Below are positions 1,666 to 37,190 of a stretch of DNA of 37,190 bases, one piece after another. Location: IMG/VR virus record IMGVR_UViG_3300045922_001069, positions 1 to 37,190 of that record. One strand, 5' to 3'. Position 1 is the first letter of the stretch; every line of letters starts with the position of its first letter. The position numbers and the translations under genes are program-made. This stretch comes from a virus. The notes beneath the pieces were generated by a model, which searched no databases, was not told the DNA's origin, and saw nothing but the letters and a program-made list of their open reading frames with translations.

Positions 1666-2039
1666 GCGCGACGTTGGTTGCGGAACCCCTGCGGCCGGCG
1701 CCGGGATCGCCGATGGCGGCGTGGGTGGATTGGGCGGTGTGGCACTCCTGCCACACCGCCCAGGGCGCCGAGGAACGCTGGGCAGAGCGTCGCGCCCGGG
1801 GCCTGACGGACGAGGAGTTGACGGCGGAGATTGGCGAGGAGTTCGGGAGCGCAGGTGGGTTTGGGCTCGGCCAGGGCACCCCGTGGGGCTGGCACTATGG
1901 CGGGCTGCATCCGCGGGTGGTGGTCGACAACCGGGTCGACCGTGACGCCATGGTCGTGGATGGACGCCGACTGGTCAATGTGGTCCGGCGGCTGTTCGCG
2001 ATCCCGATGGGCGTTGGTGGGCAGGGGGTGCTGCTGTGA
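1662..2039 (+). CDS. Hypothetical protein
   Basis: Reading from the GTG that overlaps the RuvC stop (GTGA, 1662-1665), this gives 125 residues. It contains a WHSCH motif, a charged helix with a RRARGLTDEELTAEIGEEF pattern that could be helix-turn-helix-like, and a Gly/Trp-rich middle. I do not recognise the family. The reading frame stays open upstream, but the GTGA coupling and lack of protein-like sequence before it favour 1662. It overlaps the TnpB-like gene by GTGA as well. Confidence 0.65.
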   Translation: MSATLVAEPLRPAPGSPMAAWVDWAVWHSCHTAQGAEERWAERRARGLTDEELTAEIGEEFGSAGGFGLGQGTPWGWHYGGLHPRVVVDNRVDRDAMVVDGRRLVNVVRRLFAIPMGVGGQGVLL

Positions 2040-3268
2040 CCGTGCTCCAGGCCTATCGGTTCGCGATCCGGCCGAACCCCGAGCAGGAGCGGGTGCTCGT
2101 GCAGCACGCGCGCGCCGTGCGGTTCTGCTACAACGAGCTGCTCCGCGAGGTGCGGCACAACCTCGACCTCATCCGCTGGGAGGAGCGGGTCCTCGGCCAG
2201 CGCATCAGCGAGTATCTCTCCTGGTCATCGATCGCGCTCCAGAACCTCTGGAACCAGGATGTGCGGCTGCGCCGCTGCCCCTGGTATGCGGAAAATCCCG
2301 ACGACGCCTACCGCACGGCGTTCTACGACATCCTGCCCAACGCGCTCAGGGCCTGGCGGGAGCGGCGCCACCAGGGATTCGGGTTTCCGCGGCCGCGGGG
2401 ACGGCGGGCATTGCCGACGGTGAGCTACTACTGCCGCGCTGTCGCCGGGAAGCCGCGGCTGGCGGGGCACAACCACGAACATATCGAGCTGCCCCGTGTG
2501 CCAGGGCTGATCCGCCTGGACGAGCACCCGCGAGTGCTGGTGGAGGAGTTGGCCGCTGGTGGCCGCGTCAAGCGCGCGACCGTGACGCAGGAACGCTCTG
2601 GGCGCTGGTACTGTTCGTTCCTGGTGGAGCGTGCGACGCCGAAGCGCCGCTCCGGACATGCGCCGCGAATTGATCGCATCGTGGGGGTCGCGCCGGGGAC
2701 GTCGGACCTCATCGTGCTGGCGCGCCCGGATGGGTCGGAGATTCCCCCACCGGTCCCGGCGCCGCGGCCCTACGAAGCCGCGCTCGGGCGTCTGGCACGG
2801 CGCCAGCGAGAGATGTCGCGGCAGCGGCGTGGCTCAGGGCGCTATCGCGATACGGCGGACCGGTTGGCCGTGCTCCATGCCCGGGTGGCGAACCTGCGGC
2901 GAGACTACATCCACAAAACCACGCAGCGGCTGGCGCACGGTTGCGATGTCATCGCCCTGCCGGAGATGAGCATCACGGCGCGGGCGCGCTGGCAGCGGGA
3001 ACGGGGCTGGCACGGGGCGAACCGGGCGCTCTATGACGCCGCGATCGGCGAGCTGATGCGTGAGCTGAGCTACAAGGGCGGCTGGGCGGGCTGCCAGGTG
3101 GTGATGGTCCCGCGGGAACGGTGGTCCGAGGGGATCGGGACACTATCCGGGCACGAGCGGCAGTTGAGGATTGCCATCAACCTCGCCCGTGTGGCGAGTG
3201 AGGTGGTCGCGGCGAGTGGCGCCGTGACTGCGCGTGGAGGCCAGCGTGAGACCGAGGTGCTCGTATGA
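2036..3268 (+). CDS. Nuclease-dead TnpB-like protein (TldR-like)
   Basis: A 410-residue homologue of IS200/IS605-IS607 TnpB. The family N-terminus is visible (NPEQERVLVQHARAVRFCYNELL), as are the FPRPRGRR and SGRWYCSFLVE segments and the RuvC core. The catalytic positions are altered: the VGIDLG strand reads VGVAPG (A219 for Asp), the second-strand Glu position reads P309 in DVIALPEM (a Glu follows one residue later), and the DRDxNAA motif reads ERQLRIA (Q376 for Asp). The usual CxxC...CxxC zinc finger is missing between about residues 358 and 368. Fold kept and nuclease lost matches exapted TnpB-like RNA-guided repressors (TldR), so RNA-guided DNA binding is my inference. The GTG start overlaps the upstream stop. 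No second transposase or transposon ends are seen. Confidence 0.85.
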   Translation: MTVLQAYRFAIRPNPEQERVLVQHARAVRFCYNELLREVRHNLDLIRWEERVLGQRISEYLSWSSIALQNLWNQDVRLRRCPWYAENPDDAYRTAFYDILPNALRAWRERRHQGFGFPRPRGRRALPTVSYYCRAVAGKPRLAGHNHEHIELPRVPGLIRLDEHPRVLVEELAAGGRVKRATVTQERSGRWYCSFLVERATPKRRSGHAPRIDRIVGVAPGTSDLIVLARPDGSEIPPPVPAPRPYEAALGRLARRQREMSRQRRGSGRYRDTADRLAVLHARVANLRRDYIHKTTQRLAHGCDVIALPEMSITARARWQRERGWHGANRALYDAAIGELMRELSYKGGWAGCQVVMVPRERWSEGIGTLSGHERQLRIAINLARVASEVVAASGAVTARGGQRETEVLV

Positions 3269-4722: not shown

Positions 4723-5073
4723 ATGGATATCAAGCTCTCCGCCTACCCCCGCGACTCCGATGAACTCTCCCCGGAGCCCATCCCCGCCTATCTCGATGCC
4801 AGCACCGGCCTCCCCTCCCCGGCCTACATCGAGGAGACTCATGATCTCTACCTCGATGACTCCGAGCGCACCATGCATCATACGGTTCTGCGGTTTGGCC
4901 GCCGCCTCACCGCCGAGGAGATCACCATCGCCGACGAAGCCCTTCGGCAGGCCGGCTTCCAGTATCTCCTCTGGGATCTCGCGCTCGCGCCGCAGGTCCA
5001 GCGCGCCGTGAACCAGGCAGCCAGGGCGCGCATCATCATCCGCGACCCGCTGGCCGATCTTGGGGGCGAGTGA
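4723..5073 (+). CDS. Hypothetical protein
   Basis: A 116-residue acidic protein with no motif I can name. It looks globular, with a likely helical second half (about 64-105). It lies 14 bases after the Cys-rich gene, and its stop overlaps the next start (TGATG), which places it in the same transcript as the PP-loop protein. A role linked to that enzyme is possible but unsupported. Confidence 0.65.
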   Translation: MDIKLSAYPRDSDELSPEPIPAYLDASTGLPSPAYIEETHDLYLDDSERTMHHTVLRFGRRLTAEEITIADEALRQAGFQYLLWDLALAPQVQRAVNQAARARIIIRDPLADLGGE

Positions 5074-6233
5074 TGCACTTCTACTACCACATCCGCCGGC
5101 CCGCCGACGGCGCACTGCGCTTCGGCGGCCTCGGCGCCACCCGCGAACGCACTCTCGAACGCCTGGACCAGGTCGCGGCGCGCGAACCAGACCTCACAGT
5201 AGGCCTCCTGGTCGTGGGCGCGCCCGCCGCCTGGCCCGATCTCGAACAGCGCGGCTATCTCTACCTGCAGCCATGGCTCAGCGGGAAGGTCGAACGCCTC
5301 CCCGGCTGGGAATATGATGCGCGCGAGGTCCACGCCCACGCCTTCTGGGGCACCAACTTTGATGTAGACAGCAATCCAGATGCCGCGCGCCCGGGCTGGT
5401 TCCGCTCCTTCCCAATCGGCGAGGCGGCCGCCGAGATCCACTACCTGCTCGCGCTCGGTTGCGATCATCCGGGATGGCTCCCGCCACCGCCCGCGCTCCC
5501 CGATGCGCTCGATGCCGTAGTCGCCTACGAGGCCGAGCACCAGATCTCCGGCCTGGTCGGCCACGTAGCACGCGCGGCGTGGCGTATCGAGGAGGCTCTC
5601 GCCGGCGCATCGCGCCCCTACATCGCATTCTCTGGCGGCAAGGATTCCACCGCCGTCCTCGCCCTCACCCACGCCATCGACCCGGCCATCCCGTTCATCT
5701 GGAGCGACGACGAGCTCGAGTATCCGGAAACCCTCGACCTCATGGATGCGATGCTGCGCCGCTACGGTCCCCAGTTCCGCATCACGCTCGGCTGGGCCGA
5801 GCACGCTGGCTGGTTCCGGCCGTGGCGCGATGAACCATACTGGCGCGAACCGTTCCCCGGGGCCCTCCGCATCGACCAGCCCGTGGAGCGCTGGGCCCAG
5901 GCCGAGGGCTACGACCTCACCCTCCTCGGCCTCCGCGCCGATGAAAGCCGTGCCCGCGCCGACCACCTCGCCGCCCAGGGCCACACGTATTGGCGCGCCA
6001 CCGGGCGCGTCTGCTGCCCGATTTTCGACTGGCCAACCGAAACCGTACTCCACTTCATCGCGGCCGTCGGCGCGCCGCTCAATGGAGTCTATGCAAGACT
6101 GGAAGCACTCGGTGTGGAGCCCGAGTTCCAGCGCGTCGGTCCGCTCCCACTCGTCCCCCGCCGGTTCCTGGCCGAGGGCTGGCCCAATCTCCTGGCTCGG
6201 CTCGATACTCGCTACCCGGGGCGCTGGCGATGA
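5073..6233 (+). CDS. PP-loop ATPase, PAPS-reductase-like (long form)
   Basis: The PP-loop SGGKDS is at residues 187-192, followed by FIWSDDELEYPE where PAPS reductases have their DTG...FPET segment, then GWFRPWRDEPYWR, LLGLRADESRAR and a CCPIFDW motif. The family activates substrates by adenylation or transfers sulfur from PAPS; DndC of DNA phosphorothioation also belongs here. The first 185 residues are an extra domain I do not recognise, absent from the paralogue at 6851-7573. ATG 5073 overlaps the previous stop; a GTG three bases earlier is possible. No DndB/D/E or Fe-S partner is nearby, so the substrate is unknown. Confidence 0.8.
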   Translation: MHFYYHIRRPADGALRFGGLGATRERTLERLDQVAAREPDLTVGLLVVGAPAAWPDLEQRGYLYLQPWLSGKVERLPGWEYDAREVHAHAFWGTNFDVDSNPDAARPGWFRSFPIGEAAAEIHYLLALGCDHPGWLPPPPALPDALDAVVAYEAEHQISGLVGHVARAAWRIEEALAGASRPYIAFSGGKDSTAVLALTHAIDPAIPFIWSDDELEYPETLDLMDAMLRRYGPQFRITLGWAEHAGWFRPWRDEPYWREPFPGALRIDQPVERWAQAEGYDLTLLGLRADESRARADHLAAQGHTYWRATGRVCCPIFDWPTETVLHFIAAVGAPLNGVYARLEALGVEPEFQRVGPLPLVPRRFLAEGWPNLLARLDTRYPGRWR

Positions 6234-6659: not shown

Positions 6660-6871
6660 CGGATCACCTTCCCTGGCTCGTGCCCGTGTTCCGGGATCGT
6701 GTTATTAGTGGCAGCCCTGGCGGCGAGCTCGCGCACGCTCGGGGCGCGTCCGGCCGCCGCCTCGAGGCGCAGGCCGGCGTCGAGCGTCATCCCCGCCTGC
6801 TGTCGCGTCCACTCGCCATAGCCACCGGGCCCCGACCCCGGGATAACCGTGTGGACCCCGAGCGCCCGCAT
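6656..6871 (-). CDS. Short protein with amidase-type C-terminal tail
   Basis: The 71-residue product ends in EAAAGRAPSVRELAARAAT...PEHGHE, which closely matches the C-terminal tail of the amidase at 25372-26133 (EAAAGRAPSVRELALRAAQ...PDHVHD). No catalytic domain is present. It is followed on the same strand, with an ATGA overlap, by a two-TM protein, as in the main lysis cassette. It may be a remnant or a stand-alone targeting tail. Its first 20 bases may overlap the divergent PP-loop gene. Confidence 0.5.
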   Translation of the reverse strand: MRALGVHTVIPGSGPGGYGEWTRQQAGMTLDAGLRLEAAAGRAPSVRELAARAATNNTIPEHGHEPGKVIR

Positions 6872-7573
6872 TTGCGCTGGCGATTGCCGAGTTTCCAGCG
6901 CAAGGTCGACCGGGCTCGCGCACTGATAGCAGCATGCTGCGAGCTCTGCGAGCCCTACGTCGCGTTCAGCGGCGGGAAGGACTCGCTCGTGGCCCTGGCG
7001 TTAGCCGCGCAGGTACAGCCGGGGATCGTTGCCATCTGGGTTGACGACGAACTGGAGTACCCGGAGCAAACCTGCTACATCCCCGCCGTCTGCGACGCGC
7101 TGGGGGTCCCGCTACTCGTGAAAACGGGCACGCAGCTACACGGCGGGTGGTTCCGGTCGTGGTCGATGGAACGCCCATGGAGGGACCCGCTACCTGGCAC
7201 GCTCATCACGCACGAGAGCGTCCGCCGGCTGGCGCCAGCGCTGGGGTTCGGCGGCACGATTCGCGGCCTGCGTCAGGACGAGAGCACCGTGAGGCGGGTG
7301 GTGCTGCGTACGCGCGGGGGGCTGACCCGGATGGTATGGGGATGGTGGACCTGCGACCCGCTCTCGGGCTGGAGCGTTGACGAGGTGTGGGCCGCAATTG
7401 CTGGCCTGGACCTGCCCTATAACCCGGTATACGACCGACTCTCGGAGATAGGGGTGCCTCGCGCGCGGCAGCGAGTCGGGCCCCTGCCATTGACGGACGG
7501 CTGGACATTGCGGGTCGGCTGGCCGCTGATGTACCGGAAGCTCGTCGAGCGATACGGGCAACGCTGGGAGTAA
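6851..7573 (+). CDS. PP-loop ATPase, PAPS-reductase-like (short form)
   Basis: This paralogue of the protein at 5073-6233 carries SGGKDS at residues 40-45, AIWVDDELEYPE, GWFRSWSMERPWRDP, IRGLRQDES and RQRVGPLPL in the same order. It lacks the long N-terminal domain and the CCP motif of its neighbour (it has TCDPLSGW instead). GTG 6851 is the most plausible start because the sequence becomes protein-like there; the frame is open from 6680, but that part is opposite the antisense gene. No clear ribosome-binding site is seen. Function is an inferred nucleotide-dependent modification or sulfur transfer. Confidence 0.72.
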   Translation: MDPERPHLRWRLPSFQRKVDRARALIAACCELCEPYVAFSGGKDSLVALALAAQVQPGIVAIWVDDELEYPEQTCYIPAVCDALGVPLLVKTGTQLHGGWFRSWSMERPWRDPLPGTLITHESVRRLAPALGFGGTIRGLRQDESTVRRVVLRTRGGLTRMVWGWWTCDPLSGWSVDEVWAAIAGLDLPYNPVYDRLSEIGVPRARQRVGPLPLTDGWTLRVGWPLMYRKLVERYGQRWE

Positions 7574-29013: not shown

Positions 29014-29964
29014 TCAACCTGCGCGGCCACGGCGCGCTGAGAGCTGGGCCATGGGGCTGGCGCGGCGGTGCTCGGCGAGGGCGGCTTCGACACGGCCCTG
29101 TTCGGTGTAGCGACGAACCATGGCGCTGGAGCGCCAGCCCATCGTGGCCATCAGGCCGGACTCGCTGACCTGCCCGCTCAGCACCTGGTGGGTGGCGGAG
29201 GTGTGGCGGAGGTCGTGGGGGCCGATGCCCTCGACACCGATGGCGCGAAACGAGGTGGTAACGACGTGCCAGATCCCCTCGCGGGTGAGGGGGCCGCGTT
29301 GTCCGTTGACGAGATAGCGCGGGTCGGGCCGGGGCTGGCGCCAGTAGCGGTCGATATAGCGGATGGTCTCGGGCGCGATGCCGACGAGGCGCGGGCGGCG
29401 GCCCTTCGTCGTCTCCAGGAGAATGGTCCCCGCCTCCAGGTCTACGTTTTCGCTCAGCGCGCCGGCGAGCTCCGAGGCTCGCATGCCCGTGTCGTAGAGC
29501 ACCGCGATCACCACAGCGTCGCGCCAGCGTTTGTGGCGGTCGAGGAGGCGGAAGAGCCGCGCGATGGCCTCGACGTCTACCACGTCCTGCGCCGTCTCGG
29601 GGAGCTCCGGCGGGCGGATGCGGCGGGCGCCCGGCGGACCGAACGGCGACGCCTCGATCTCACCCTCGTCGAGGAGCCAATCGTAAAACGCGCGGAGGCC
29701 GAGGTAGCGATACCGGACGGTGGCCGGGCGCTGCCGCTCATGCAGCTCCACGAGCCAGGACTCGACGTCAGCGCGCGTGGCCGCCATGAGGTCCCGCTCC
29801 CCGAGCCATGCCTCGAATCGCTCCGCCGAACCGGTGTACTGGAGGCGGGTGGAGGGGCTGAGATTCTCGGCCCGGAGGTGGCGCTCGAAGCTCCGAATCA
29901 TGTGGCCAAACCGCGACGTGCTGGCCGGTGAGGGGGCTGCCGGGCGCTGCGGATGAGGTTTCAT
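29014..29964 (-). CDS. int: Tyrosine integrase
   Basis: 316 residues. An N-terminal SAM-like core-binding domain (about 22-105; SFERHLRAENLSPSTRLQYTGSAERF) precedes the catalytic domain with R162 (RASEL), K187 (TTKGRR), H250-x-x-R253 (HDLRHT), W277 in the second His position and nucleophile Y286 (VRRYT). It catalyses integration at the adjacent attP. Neither ATG 29964 nor ATG 29901 has a clear ribosome-binding site; both lie in a repeated TTTGGCCACATGA element. The first ~197 bases overlap, in another frame, the end of the repressor. Confidence 0.9.
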   Translation of the reverse strand: MKPHPQRPAAPSPASTSRFGHMIRSFERHLRAENLSPSTRLQYTGSAERFEAWLGERDLMAATRADVESWLVELHERQRPATVRYRYLGLRAFYDWLLDEGEIEASPFGPPGARRIRPPELPETAQDVVDVEAIARLFRLLDRHKRWRDAVVIAVLYDTGMRASELAGALSENVDLEAGTILLETTKGRRPRLVGIAPETIRYIDRYWRQPRPDPRYLVNGQRGPLTREGIWHVVTTSFRAIGVEGIGPHDLRHTSATHQVLSGQVSESGLMATMGWRSSAMVRRYTEQGRVEAALAEHRRASPMAQLSARRGRAG

Positions 29965-30292
29965 GTGGCCAAATCAGACTCGCGACTGGTTCCCTGGTAG
30001 CAGGGGGGAGACTTGAACTCCCGACCTCACGAATCTCAGGGATGATGGGATCGACCTCGGTCGCGGCTCCCGTCGGATCGCGACCGGCCAACTCTCGGAG
30101 AAACGCCTCCGGTACCCCCGTGGCGCGGGCGATCTTGGCTAGCGTCTCCACCCGCGGGGGAACGCCTCCTAGGTAGTTCGAGACCATCGAGTTCGAAATG
30201 TGGGCCTTGCGAGCGAGATCGGCCGATGACCAACCGTTCTTCGCCATCGTCTCGCGCAGCCAGTCCGCGAATCTCATCGTAGGCACGAGCAT
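29768..30292 (-). CDS. CI-like repressor, attP inside reading frame
   Basis: 174 residues from ATG 30292 (or ATG 30277). Residues 6-70 are a Cro/CI HTH: MRFADWLRETMAKNGWSSADLARKAHISNSMVSNYLGG. The frame then reads straight through the tRNA-like attP core (as EIREVGSSSLPPATR, near residue 99) and ends inside int. Integration would therefore replace everything after about residue 99 with host-encoded sequence. In mycobacteriophages BPs, Brujita and Charlie the same layout makes the repressor active only after integration. The phage-form tail (about 75 residues) is Pro/His/Ser-rich and does not end in an ssrA-like tag. Confidence 0.78.
   Translation of the reverse strand: MLVPTMRFADWLRETMAKNGWSSADLARKAHISNSMVSNYLGGVPPRVETLAKIARATGVPEAFLRELAGRDPTGAATEVDPIIPEIREVGSSSLPPATREPVASLIWPHETSSAAPGSPLTGQHVAVWPHDSELRAPPPGRESQPLHPPPVHRFGGAIRGMARGAGPHGGHAR
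29898..29973 (-). repeat. Two 13-nt direct repeats, integrase arm-site candidates
   Basis: TCATGTGGCCAAA occurs at 29898-29910 and 29961-29973, 63 bases apart, each followed on the plus strand within a few bases by CGCGAC. They lie 20-100 bases from the attP core, the usual distance for arm-type sites of tyrosine integrases. Each also contains a possible int start codon. Confidence 0.5.
29995..30040 (-). other. attP core: tRNA 3'-half sequence
   Basis: Read on the minus strand, these 46 bases end in CCA and contain a T-arm, GGGAG-TTCAAGT-CTCCC, a 5-base variable region, and acceptor 3' strand CCCTGCT plus A. No D-arm or 5' acceptor strand lies upstream, so it is not a whole tRNA. Tyrosine integrases often recombine into the 3' end of host tRNA genes, which the phage copy then restores. 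It lies 31 bases from int. The identity of the tRNA is uncertain; the anticodon-position bases read GAG but may be outside the shared core. Confidence 0.82.
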
Positions 30293-30367: not shown

Positions 30368-30583
30368 ATGACGACTGAGACGCTTCCGAAGACGAAGCTG
30401 CGGACGTTCCTGGACGAGCGAGGGCTGCGCTACATCTGGGTCGCCGAGCGACTCGGGATCTCGAAGAGCCACCTCGGCCACATCATGGATGGCCGTCGAC
30501 CGCTCAACCCAACGCTGGCCGAGCGTATCGGAGAGCTGTTCGACGTCGATCCCCAGATGTTCGAGGAGTACGCCCATGCCTGA
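30368..30583 (+). CDS. Cro-like HTH regulator
   Basis: 71 residues: an HTH of the Cro/CI family, KLRTFLDERGLRYIWVAERLGISKSHLGHIMDGRRPLNPTLAERIGELFDV. It is transcribed divergently from the repressor, as cro is. ATG 30368 is preferred to an in-frame TTG at 30338, which lies in the promoter. No ribosome-binding site is seen, consistent with a leaderless message. It would favour lytic growth by repressing the repressor promoter. Confidence 0.82.
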   Translation: MTTETLPKTKLRTFLDERGLRYIWVAERLGISKSHLGHIMDGRRPLNPTLAERIGELFDVDPQMFEEYAHA

Positions 30584-33629: not shown

Positions 33630-34493
33630 ATGCCCTGGGCGCGCCTGGACGACCGGTTCTCTGAGCACCCGAAAATTGTCGGCCTCACGGACCGCGCGTT
33701 TCGGCTGCACGTCAGCGCGATCGTCTACGCGGCCCGCAACCGCACGGACGGCCGTATCGCAGCCTCCCTACCGCGCGCCTGGGGGTTCATGCCGCGGCAT
33801 GTGCAGGAGCTCGTCAGCTCGCATCTCTGGGACCCGATAGACGGCGGCTGGGCGATCCACGACTACCTCGACTACAACCCCAGCCGCGCCGAGGCCGAGG
33901 AGCGCGAGCAACGGCTCAGTGGCGCCCGCCGCCAGGCCGGCCGCCGAGGCGCCGAGGCGCGATGGCAAACCGATGGCAAACGCGATGGCAACGCGATGGC
34001 AAATGCCATGGCAACGCGATGGCAAAACGATGGCAAACGCGATGGCAAACCGATGGCAAACGCCATGGCAACGCGATGGCAAAACGATGGCAAACGCGAT
34101 GGCAAACCGATGGCAAACGCCATGGCAACGCGATGGCAAAACGATGGCCCCGATCCCCTAGAGGAGGAGGATATATCTAGATCCAGATCTGGATCCTCCT
34201 CCTCCGGGGATCGGGATCGGGGGCATCGTTTTGCCATGCCGTTTGCCATTTTGCCATGGGCCGAACGCGCCGCTGAAATTCTCGGCCGTGCCGGCCGCTG
34301 GAAACCGGCCGAGGCGAATCTGTTGGAGGCTCTCAGCGCCGACTACAGCGAGGAGCAGATCGAGTCTGCGCTGGAACGTGTGGAGGCACGGGCGCAGCTA
34401 CCGTTCGCCCAGAACCTGCGGCGGGAGCTCGTCGCCGAATTCGGCGAGCCGGACTGGGTCCGTGCTCGCCGTGGGCCCGCGAGGTACGGCTGA
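33630..34493 (+). CDS. DnaD-like replication initiation protein
   Basis: 287 residues. ATG 33630 has GGAGG 8 bases upstream and gives MPWARLDDRFSEHPKIVGL, the typical start of this phage replication family; ATG 33615 is an alternative. About 1-100 is a winged-helix-like domain, 110-172 is low-complexity sequence from internal DNA repeats, and about 205-285 is a helical DnaD-like end (ILGRAGRWKPAEANLLEALSADYSEEQIESALERVEAR). It probably binds the repeats in its own gene and recruits host helicase, as lambda O does. Confidence 0.72.
   Translation: MPWARLDDRFSEHPKIVGLTDRAFRLHVSAIVYAARNRTDGRIAASLPRAWGFMPRHVQELVSSHLWDPIDGGWAIHDYLDYNPSRAEAEEREQRLSGARRQAGRRGAEARWQTDGKRDGNAMANAMATRWQNDGKRDGKPMANAMATRWQNDGKRDGKPMANAMATRWQNDGPDPLEEEDISRSRSGSSSSGDRDRGHRFAMPFAILPWAERAAEILGRAGRWKPAEANLLEALSADYSEEQIESALERVEARAQLPFAQNLRRELVAEFGEPDWVRARRGPARYG
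33962..34138 (+). repeat. Iteron-like array of 16 ATGGCA boxes
   Basis: ATGGCA starts at 33962, 33973, 33985, 33996, 34008, 34019, 34030, 34042, 34053, 34065, 34076, 34087, 34099, 34110, 34122 and 34133. Intervals are 11 or 12 bases, mean 11.4, so all boxes face nearly the same side of the helix. Five boxes make a 57-bp unit repeated three times; the second and third units are identical and the first is diverged. The array is inside the replication gene, the position of the lambda origin. Confidence 0.8.
34151..34257. other. 63-bp imperfect palindrome plus inverted boxes
   Basis: CGATCCCC (34151-34158) pairs with GGGGATCG (34206-34213), and GAGGAGGAGGAT (34161-34172) with ATCCTCCTCCTC (34193-34204). 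At the centre, GATCCAGATCTGGATC (34180-34195) is itself a perfect palindrome. Beyond it, TTTTGCCAT (34229-34237), TTTGCCAT (34242-34249) and TTTTGCCAT (34249-34257) are inverted copies of the ATGGCAAA boxes on the left. The whole forms a symmetric origin-like region with local A/T at 34171-34178. Confidence 0.7.
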
Positions 34494-34989: not shown

Positions 34990-35273
34990 GGAGCCGTCCG
35001 CGCGTCGACGCCCTGCCCGAGAACATCAACTATCGGGACACCGGATGCGACGTATCGCCGTCGTGCCTGCGCTGTCCTCTGCCGCGCTGCAAGTTCGATT
35101 CGGCGTGGGAGCAATGGCGGGAACGCATAGATGCCCGCAACGCCACCCTCGCGGAGCTGTACGCCCGTGGCCTTTCCGTGGCCGAGATCGCCGAGCGGAG
35201 CGGCCTCTCCGTGCGCTCTGTCTACCGAGCGGTAGGGCCGCACCTGTCCCGGCGCAGCCGCGCAACCACCTGA
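34986..35273 (+). CDS. Cys4 / helix-turn-helix protein
   Basis: 95 residues. YRDTGCDVSPSCLRCPLPRC puts cysteines at 21, 27, 30 and 35, a probable metal site; residues 54-80 (LAELYARGLSVAEIAERSGLSVRSVYRAV) are an HTH. The final 27 codons lie in the 213-bp duplicated segment. A regulator of late genes is a reasonable guess for its place at the end of the early region. Confidence 0.72.
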   Translation: MRSRPRVDALPENINYRDTGCDVSPSCLRCPLPRCKFDSAWEQWRERIDARNATLAELYARGLSVAEIAERSGLSVRSVYRAVGPHLSRRSRATT

Positions 35274-35405
35274 GGAGGAGGAAACCCATGTCCCGGACGA
35301 AACGCCACCCGCTCACCGGCGAGGTGGAGCACCAGGAGGATCCATACGGCGGCGCCTCGCTGAACGGCGCCCAGGCGCCGGAGGGGAGCGCGGAGCGCGT
35401 GAGGG
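35193..35405 (+). repeat. 213-bp direct repeat, internal copy
   Basis: Identical to 36978-37190 (offset 1,785). It contains the last 27 codons of the Cys4/HTH gene, the intergenic GGAGGAGGA site and the first 39 codons of the following gene. After 35405 the sequence differs from that following the other copy (base 128). Confidence 0.95.
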
Positions 35406-35533
35406 CGCACGTGCACAACATCCGGCGGACGCTCGGACGCGGAGCGGTCCGGACGGTTGGGCGGGGGTATGTGGTCGGAGCAGGGGCCCGGGAGCAGGGC
35501 GCAGGGGCGGAGACGTGGGAGGCGGCGGGATGA
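35288..35533 (+). CDS. Chimeric protein, shared N-terminus plus wHTH-like end
   Basis: 81 residues. The first 39 are identical to the protein at 10-852. The remainder begins AHVHNIRRTLGRGAVRTVGRGYVV, which resembles the last helix and wing of OmpR/PhoB-type winged helices. So the gene looks like a fusion of a duplicated 5' end to the 3' end of another gene. The strong GGAGGAGGA site is retained. It overlaps the next gene by 4 bases. Function, if any, is unknown. Confidence 0.6.
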   Translation: MSRTKRHPLTGEVEHQEDPYGGASLNGAQAPEGSAERVRAHVHNIRRTLGRGAVRTVGRGYVVGAGAREQGAGAETWEAAG

Positions 35534-36543
35534 GCGGGACCGCGATCCAGTGGACCGACGCGACCTGGAACCCGGTGACGGGGTGCTCGAAGGTCTCGGC
35601 GGGCTGCGACAACTGCTACGCGCAGCAGCTGCACAACCGGCGCTATCGCGCGACGGTGTCCGCGGCCCTCGAGCGCGTAGAGCGTCACCACGGGGAGACA
35701 GTGGCGCAACTGATCGCGAGGGCCCGCGGCCAGGAACGGGCGGAGGGAGACAGCATCCTGCCGTTCCGCTCCCGCACGTACGACGAGCCGTTCGCGGTGG
35801 TGCGATGCCATCCGGAGCGAGTGGTGGCCATGCTGGGGTCGCGGCGGTGGGCGGGCAGGCGGGTGTTCGTGAACAGCATGAGCGACCTGTTCCACGAGCG
35901 CGTCCCCGACGAGTTCCTGCGGCTCGTGTTCTGGGCGATGGCCGGGAGGCCGGAGATCACGTTCCAGGTGCTGACGAAACGGCCGCGGCGGATGGCGGAG
36001 TTCGTCACGGGGTTCCTGGATCGCGACTGGCCCATGGGGCCGCTCCCGAACGTGTGGCTGGGGACGAGCGTGGAGGACCAGCAGTCGGCGGATGAGCGGA
36101 TGGGAGCGCTGGTGGACGTGCCGGCGGTTGTCCGGTTCCTGAGCATCGAGCCGCTGCTGGAGGAGGTGGAGCTGATGCCGCTGTTCGTGAGCTATGACCG
36201 GGCGACGCGCGGGTGGGAGGGGACGGACGCGGTGCACTGGGTGATCGTGGGCGGGGAGAGCGGGCCGAAGGCACGGCCGTGTGATCCCGGCTGGATTCGC
36301 CTGGTCCGTGACCAGTGCCGTGCTGCCGGGGTGGCGGTGTTCGTGAAACAGCTCGGTCGGCGGCCCTGCATCGGGCAGGTGGAGAGCGCGGCGGGAAGCG
36401 GGGTGTTTGAACCGGACCTGGTGAAGCTCCGCCATCCGCAGGGCGGCAACCCGGCGGAGTGGCCGGAGGACCTGCGGGTGCGGGAGTTTCCGGTGGTGCG
36501 GAGTTCGAGCGAGCTGCTGCGGGCATGGGAGGCTGGGCGATGA
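35530..36543 (+). CDS. Phage Gp37/Gp68 family (DUF5131) protein
   Basis: 337 residues. IQWTDATWNPVTGCSKVSAGCDNCYAQ is the hallmark start of the family; its three cysteines (C-x7-C-x2-C) recall an iron-sulfur or radical-SAM-like site. Further family motifs are VFVNSMSDLFHERVP, FQVLTKRPRRM, NVWLGTSVEDQ, RFLSIEPLLE and WVIVGGESG. The biochemical role is not established to my knowledge. ATG 35530 overlaps the previous stop. It is the main cargo of the cassette between the 213-bp repeats. Confidence 0.88.
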   Translation: MSGTAIQWTDATWNPVTGCSKVSAGCDNCYAQQLHNRRYRATVSAALERVERHHGETVAQLIARARGQERAEGDSILPFRSRTYDEPFAVVRCHPERVVAMLGSRRWAGRRVFVNSMSDLFHERVPDEFLRLVFWAMAGRPEITFQVLTKRPRRMAEFVTGFLDRDWPMGPLPNVWLGTSVEDQQSADERMGALVDVPAVVRFLSIEPLLEEVELMPLFVSYDRATRGWEGTDAVHWVIVGGESGPKARPCDPGWIRLVRDQCRAAGVAVFVKQLGRRPCIGQVESAAGSGVFEPDLVKLRHPQGGNPAEWPEDLRVREFPVVRSSSELLRAWEAGR

Positions 36544-36656: not shown

Positions 36657-36979
36657 CGGAGCTGGGGCAGGCGCTGGCGGCAGTGCGGCCGTCGGGCTCG
36701 CTCGTCGGGCAATACCTGGCGGGCTGGACCGCGGACGAGCTGGATGTGCTCGGGTTCGTGGCGGACCGGCTGCGGCTGGGCCGGGGGCGCTATGGGCCGC
36801 TGGACATTGGGACGGACGGGCGGGACTGGCGGCGGGAGCGTCTGGAGGAGGCGGCGGACGGGCTGATCTACAGCGCGATCGAGGTATTGAAGGCCGAGCT
36901 GCTGCGGTCCCGGGAGCCCGGCCGCGAGAGGCCGGCGCTGCGGCACGCTACAGCGTCCGAGAGCGAGGCCGAGGCATGA
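36635..36979 (+). CDS. Hypothetical protein
   Basis: 114 residues. GGAGGGG precedes ATG 36635. FVADRLRLGRGRYGPLDIGTDGRDWRRERLEEAADGLIYSAIEVL is a conserved-looking block known to me from uncharacterised phage proteins; the RDW...E..EEAAD pattern is weakly like all-alpha NTP pyrophosphohydrolases, but the motif is incomplete. The stop codon lies at the boundary of the 213-bp repeat. Confidence 0.6.
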   Translation: MPDREPVTELGQALAAVRPSGSLVGQYLAGWTADELDVLGFVADRLRLGRGRYGPLDIGTDGRDWRRERLEEAADGLIYSAIEVLKAELLRSREPGRERPALRHATASESEAEA

Positions 36980-37190
36980 GCGGAGCGGCCTCTCCGTGCG
37001 CTCTGTCTACCGAGCGGTAGGGCCGCACCTGTCCCGGCGCAGCCGCGCAACCACCTGAGGAGGAGGAAACCCATGTCCCGGACGAAACGCCACCCGCTCA
37101 CCGGCGAGGTGGAGCACCAGGAGGATCCATACGGCGGCGCCTCGCTGAACGGCGCCCAGGCGCCGGAGGGGAGCGCGGAGCGCGTGAGGG
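36978..37190 (+). repeat. 213-bp direct repeat, terminal copy
   Basis: Second copy of the segment at 35193-35405. It contains a headless piece of the Cys4/HTH gene (36978-37058), which is not expressed as a full protein. The last 127 bases are also the left end of the contig, so on the circular genome this copy continues into base 128. Confidence 0.95.
37073..37190 (+). CDS. Start of the gene at 10-852 (contig overlap)
   Basis: These bases repeat codons 1-39 of the 280-residue protein at 10-852. They are the same gene on the circular genome, cut by the contig end, and should not be counted twice. Confidence 0.9.
   Translation, partial: MSRTKRHPLTGEVEHQEDPYGGASLNGAQAPEGSAERVR

Follow-up and report, generated by a model that had tools for sequence, protein, structure and literature searches.

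Does this phage settle the choice between lysis and lysogeny through integration itself? The question arises from a single IMG/VR virus entry of 37,190 bases (the window, by which we mean the record at its whole length) in which a repressor gene and a tyrosine integrase gene (int) lie adjacent on the same strand, and the repressor reading frame crosses a tRNA 3' half that lies just before int. A decision switch is possible, but the evidence leans toward an incidental overlap, which we give about an even chance, over a tagless, mirror-image version of integration-dependent immunity, which we regard as distinctly less probable.

Bases 1-127 are identical to the last 127, and the simplest reading of these end repeats suggests a circular assembly of about 37,063 bases; the attachment site is therefore probably in its free-phage form rather than at a prophage junction. 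The genes include those for terminase, portal, tape measure and RecT, the virus is probably one of Chloroflexota bacteria, and no tRNA gene is detected in the window by ARAGORN. A second exact direct repeat, of 213 bases (35193-35405 and 36978-37190), lies on either side of 1.8 kb of DNA that includes a DUF5131 gene (35530-36543; Pfam E=7e-75), a segment that is possibly mobile or duplicated. Elsewhere, an imperfect tandem array of GATGGCAAACGC-like units (33935-34171) falls within a gene that at its start is similar to phage replication initiation proteins, and is possibly an origin or iteron-like array. As judged by eye, the translations of 5070-6233 (+) and 6680-7573 (+) contain an SGGKDS motif as in PAPS-reductase/ATP-pyrophosphatase proteins, and that of 2036-3268 (+) has a TnpB/transposase-type look.

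Features of the repressor-attP-integrase region (positions in the window)
Feature	Position	Strand	Remarks
Tyrosine integrase without arm-binding domain	29014-29901	-	Favoured ATG 29901, alternative ATG 29964; PF00589 and PF02899
Phage-form repressor tail, 75 codons plus stop, which would be swapped on integration	29768-29994	-	Open frame; negative codon score; low-confidence and unstructured in model
Putative attP core: tRNA-Met(CAT) 3' half, T-arm to CCA, sense to repressor and int	29995-30032	-	Matches to host tRNAs; T-arm on minus strand
Remainder of the 46-base half originally predicted; departs from hosts in the anticodon loop	30033-30040	-	Compared with 18 host loci
Repressor, pre-core part (HTH domain and short C-terminal stretch)	30041-30292	-	ATG 30292 or 30277; Pfam HTH_3 E=6e-10; codon score +9.5 over 79 codons
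Divergent Cro-like HTH gene	30368-30583	+	HTH_31 E=1e-9, HTH_3 E=7e-6

The reading of the locus in the original prediction is partly borne out. A CI-like repressor frame was said to run through the tRNA half and to end inside int, and from either candidate start no stop is encountered before 29768; its product also matches the HTH_31 and HTH_26 families. The tRNA half is crossed at about residues 82-95 (from ATG 30277) or 87-100 (from ATG 30292). The Cro-like gene is divergent, as described, and the repressor tail is indeed not ssrA-like, ending GGHAR. A single-sequence AlphaFold2 model of the repressor contains five confident helices between residues 8 and 70 and nothing confident beyond, although a model built without an alignment is weak evidence on the tail. 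No PDB relatives were found, and pattern searches found no sigma-70 promoters or terminators.

A 46-base tRNA 3' half had been proposed at 29995-30040. It is a tRNA half, but with flanks aligned the exact identity to host tRNA-Met(CAT) covers only 38 nt (TCGTGAGGTCGGGAGTTCAAGTCTCCCCCCTGCTACCA). The search for a host tRNA gene identified tRNA-Met(CAT) of Dehalococcoidia: 34 nt of the core are matched exactly at 18 loci, nearly all in MAGs of Dehalococcoidia or other Chloroflexota, 15 of them intact tRNA-Met(CAT) genes and three half copies, of the kind that integrated elements leave. An exact 34-nt match to Dehalococcoidia tRNA-Met, beside int and with the tRNA 3' end toward int, is beyond chance. 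Because the tRNA half sits just before int (likely start 29901), it is very probably attP, and on this sequence evidence the likeliest integration target is tRNA-Met in a Dehalococcoidia-like (Chloroflexota) host. In the anticodon loop the phage has CTGAGAT where the candidate hosts have CTCATAA, with three of the seven bases differing in every candidate, so that crossover is likelier in the T arm than in the anticodon loop.

Two other loci are informative about the site. In MAG G003, an int gene starts ∼140 bases past tRNA-Met and is followed, another 8.7 kb along, by a half copy, an arrangement suggesting that tRNA-Met serves as attB. The 8.7-kb stretch itself (G003:C38:79000-92000, L077; tRNA-Met end 80989, int 81130, half copy ending 89736) has an excisionase-like ORF, recognized by eye, upstream of the half copy and is possibly a small integrative element or satellite. 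Virus contig IMGVR_UViG_3300033067_001690 (L074) resembles the window in that the same tRNA-Met core, oriented the same way, immediately precedes a tyrosine integrase. It differs in that its core match spans 49 nt, anticodon loop included, compared to 38 nt in the window, and its HTH repressor lies 1.4 kb upstream, ending well before attP.

The long form of int (29014-29964) matches Phage_integrase with E=2e-22 and has 316 aa; the shorter form has 295 aa. The core-binding SAM domain (PF02899) begins at residue 23 of the long form, which is residue 2 of the favoured form, int homologues align from about the same residue 23, and the codon score is positive for int only past 29901. Codon usage and the domain start thus favour the start at 29901 over that at 29964. 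A 13-nt exact direct repeat, TTTGGCCACATGA, is present on the minus strand at 29898-29910 and 29961-29973, 63 bases apart and with one candidate int ATG in each copy; no further copy with fewer than three mismatches occurs in the window, and the repeats could be sites for the integrase or for a regulator. None of the small genes that were tested belongs to an excisionase family, and several match no family. The int product ends GRAG, which is not ssrA-like.

The original prediction was also that integration would replace the last ∼75 residues of the repressor with host-encoded sequence, and the geometry agrees. With the tRNA half sense to the repressor, integration would put int directly behind the restored tRNA-Met, and the HTH part would become joined to host DNA downstream of the tRNA. 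If the core is attP, as we infer, integration there must split the repressor frame and swap its last 75 codons. The sense orientation also means that variable host DNA would supply the end of the prophage form. Read at 14 unoccupied tRNA-Met loci, which are candidate attB sites and may differ from that of the actual host, the frame continues after the core for 7, 13, 14, 20, 20, 23, 28, 53, 63, 86, 103, 129, 261 and 284 codons; nine of the 14 tails are shorter than the 75 codons of the phage form, and they have no common end.

How much should be made of the open frame? At 69% GC, open runs that begin at random positions in any frame have a median length of 59 codons, and a fraction of 0.43 reach at least 75 codons; the two shifted frames within int are open for at least 75 codons at frequencies of 0.23 and 0.59. 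Two of the three frames through the core are open, and the frame used here is open past the same core in all four of the other copies (L003, L011, L017 and L074), for 58 to 342 codons. Such runs are therefore ordinary in this genome and at this core, and an open frame through the core is not meaningful by itself. No repressor reads into the tRNA-Met core at the half copies L003, L011 and L017, or at L074; the one notable point left is that it is an HTH gene whose frame crosses attP.

With a codon score trained on the window's own genes, the repressor frame is supported only before the core; it is weak already at residues 75-90 and negative onward, at -12.4 over 29902-29994 and -21.2 over 29768-29901, where the int frame scores +7.6. 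In the repressor frame the codons of the tail are thus used as in non-coding DNA, and the tail overlaps int in a different frame. When Brujita and Charlie are put through the same test, their repressor ends are mildly positive or near zero, except for the last three codons of Charlie.

The nearest repressor relatives with repressor-int order are in Arthrobacter phages Andrew and TaylorSipht (L050 and L182; tblastn E 0.007-0.008), which also share a divergent HTH gene and a nearby RecT gene with the window. In contrast to the window, their repressors stop at the int start with a C-terminal helix of their own and contain no tRNA half, and their 397-aa integrases have an N-terminal part before the core-binding domain (∼75 residues in Andrew), whereas the window's integrase is armless. 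Similarity to the ends of these repressors is detectable from residue 67 through the core (shuffle p 0.017 and 0.008), and appears to reach about as far as the core, not clearly beyond it. Homology of the post-core tail to the Arthrobacter ends was considered and rejected: it was not significant for residues 95-125 (shuffle p 0.64 and 0.68), and the values for the whole tail were 0.38 and 0.02. No close relatives were recovered from IMG/VR with repressor, int or portal peptides. An int profile found 80 IMG/VR loci, of which 53 had upstream sequence that was scanned; none of the 53 has a same-strand HTH gene abutting int, and where HTH genes were found near these integrases they are mostly antisense and ∼0.4-1 kb off. 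One MAG contig with phage-like genes (G007:C39, L076) encodes the C-terminal part of an integrase, 53% identical to that of the window, along with an amidase-like ORF and a divergent HTH ORF, but has neither the int N-terminus nor a repressor; it is a decayed relative or an assembly join and does not decide the matter.

We consider it most likely, with roughly even chances of being correct, that a complete HTH domain is kept in both forms of the repressor and that the swap of tails is incidental. On this view a temperate phage carries repressor, attP and integrase as one compact module, and, with no repressor stop before attP, the frame continues across the tRNA-derived core and enters the beginning of int in a different frame. 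In both states the working repressor would be the complete DNA-binding domain that precedes the core, and the tail swap would be mostly a by-product of having attP at the 3' end of the repressor gene. Both Pfam and the AlphaFold2 model place the whole HTH domain before the core, and the tail's non-coding codon usage, unlike that of Brujita and Charlie, and the ordinariness of open frames of this length point the same way. Host tails ranging from 7 to 284 codons with no common end suit a repressor that tolerates any tail, and neither protein has an ssrA-like end even though the candidate-host tmRNA tags (five read by ARAGORN) end LALAA. Andrew and TaylorSipht, moreover, share this gene order, and in them the repressor just ends where int begins. 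Nonetheless, a conventional repressor would be expected to keep its own stop before attP, and there is none here; the similarity to the Andrew-type repressor end ceases at about the start of the core, an armless integrase and this gene order are those of integration-dependent systems, and a 75-residue tail, predicted to be disordered, may well destabilise the phage form.

That last possibility leads to the explanation closest to the original prediction, namely a new form of integration-dependent immunity in which the disordered tail makes the phage repressor inactive or short-lived, and integration removes it to leave an active protein with a host-encoded end, so that integration itself would set the decision. 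We view this as possible but doubtful. The components in place are a putative attP core within the repressor frame, a likely tRNA attB, an integrase that lacks the arm-binding domain, a Cro-like gene in divergent orientation, and a lysis - int - rep - cro - RecT order as in Charlie; these, together with the forced tail swap, agree with the prediction. Most of the candidate host sites would, in addition, give a shorter protein. What is not supported is that the swap exerts control: the ends of both proteins are not ssrA-like, the tail has no coding signature and overlaps int, the 13-nt repeat could be an arm-type site, and the arrangement is absent from the relatives found. The tRNA half is also inverted relative to Brujita and Charlie, so the new end would be host-specific and sometimes longer, and the prophage form is not reliably shorter. 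A more particular version, somewhat more tentative still, is a mirror-image switch in a Chloroflexota phage, with attP sense to the repressor, silencing of the phage-form protein not by an ssrA tag but by a long disordered tail that is read from int in the wrong frame, and host DNA past tRNA-Met writing the active end; if so, the host strain would influence lysogeny.

It is unlikely that an error in assembly or sequence, or a frameshifted allele, accounts for the missing stop and that the true repressor extends no further than the core. Shifting the frame by a single base immediately ahead of the core would bring it straight onto TGA (neighbour frame C TGA, 30040-30037), and the repressor-frame codon score fades just there, but no frame change is seen within the HTH part, and the pre-core stretch of this single record aligns in frame with Andrew-type repressors. 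Least probable of all is that the tRNA half is a relic and the phage integrates elsewhere with its repressor never split, since although the anticodon loop, a usual place of crossover, departs from all candidate hosts and is retained in L074, the 38 exact nt contain T-arm and CCA directly before int in the orientation of L074 and the G003:C38 element, a T-loop crossover would fit, and the window has no tRNA gene of its own.

The distinction matters beyond this phage. If integration controls the repressor, the simplest known lysogeny switch would extend past the actinobacterial phages for which the literature examined describes it, and would work without the ssrA tags thought to drive it, which would bear on the proposal that the integration-dependent switch is ancestral (PMC4557955). 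If the tail swap is incidental, a repressor-attP-int operon easily mimics such a switch in GC-rich DNA, and the sequence tests that distinguish the two are the orientation of the tRNA half, the codon usage of the tail, and the presence of a tag. We found no report of integration-dependent immunity together with Chloroflexi in the literature examined.

In the established systems, attP lies in the repressor gene, rep and int are co-transcribed, both products carry ssrA-like tags, attB is a tRNA gene, arm sites are absent, and a directionality factor is not evident (PMC9262239, PMC4557955, PMC9635641); in BPs, the base adjoining the core creates a stop (PMC9262239). Integration-dependent immunity has also been inferred for two Bifidobacterium prophages, Bb423phi2 and 689b-1, which are integrated at tRNA-Met, as is likely for the phage of the window, and have int by attL and the repressor by attR; their reconstructed phage-form repressors have 18 extra residues and an ssrA-like tag (PMC6109161), compared to 75 residues and no tag here. 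With BPs, Brujita and Charlie the window shares side-by-side repressor and int genes on one strand, a divergent Cro-like gene, a core formed by a tRNA 3' half within the repressor frame, and a probable tRNA attB, and its integrase is of similar size and armless (316 or 295 aa, versus 318 in Brujita and 323 in Charlie); the gene order is that of Charlie. There are also differences. The tRNA half is sense to the repressor in the window and antisense in Brujita and Charlie, as judged from the T-arm strand (L174 and L175), so that in those phages the new repressor end would lie antisense in a conserved tRNA gene. The tails of Brujita and Charlie are ∼20-33 codons, end before int and do not show non-coding usage, whereas that of the window overlaps int and has no coding signature; their repressors end HAA and SAA and their integrases LSAA and LSAVS. 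Beyond the HTH fold there is no homology between the repressors, and the integrases are 26-27% identical. The window thus has the putative attP in frame, the likely tRNA attB and the armless integrase of the BPs type, and lacks its ssrA-like tags and the tRNA-half orientation seen in Brujita and Charlie; we would not class it with that group, although it may still work like a member.
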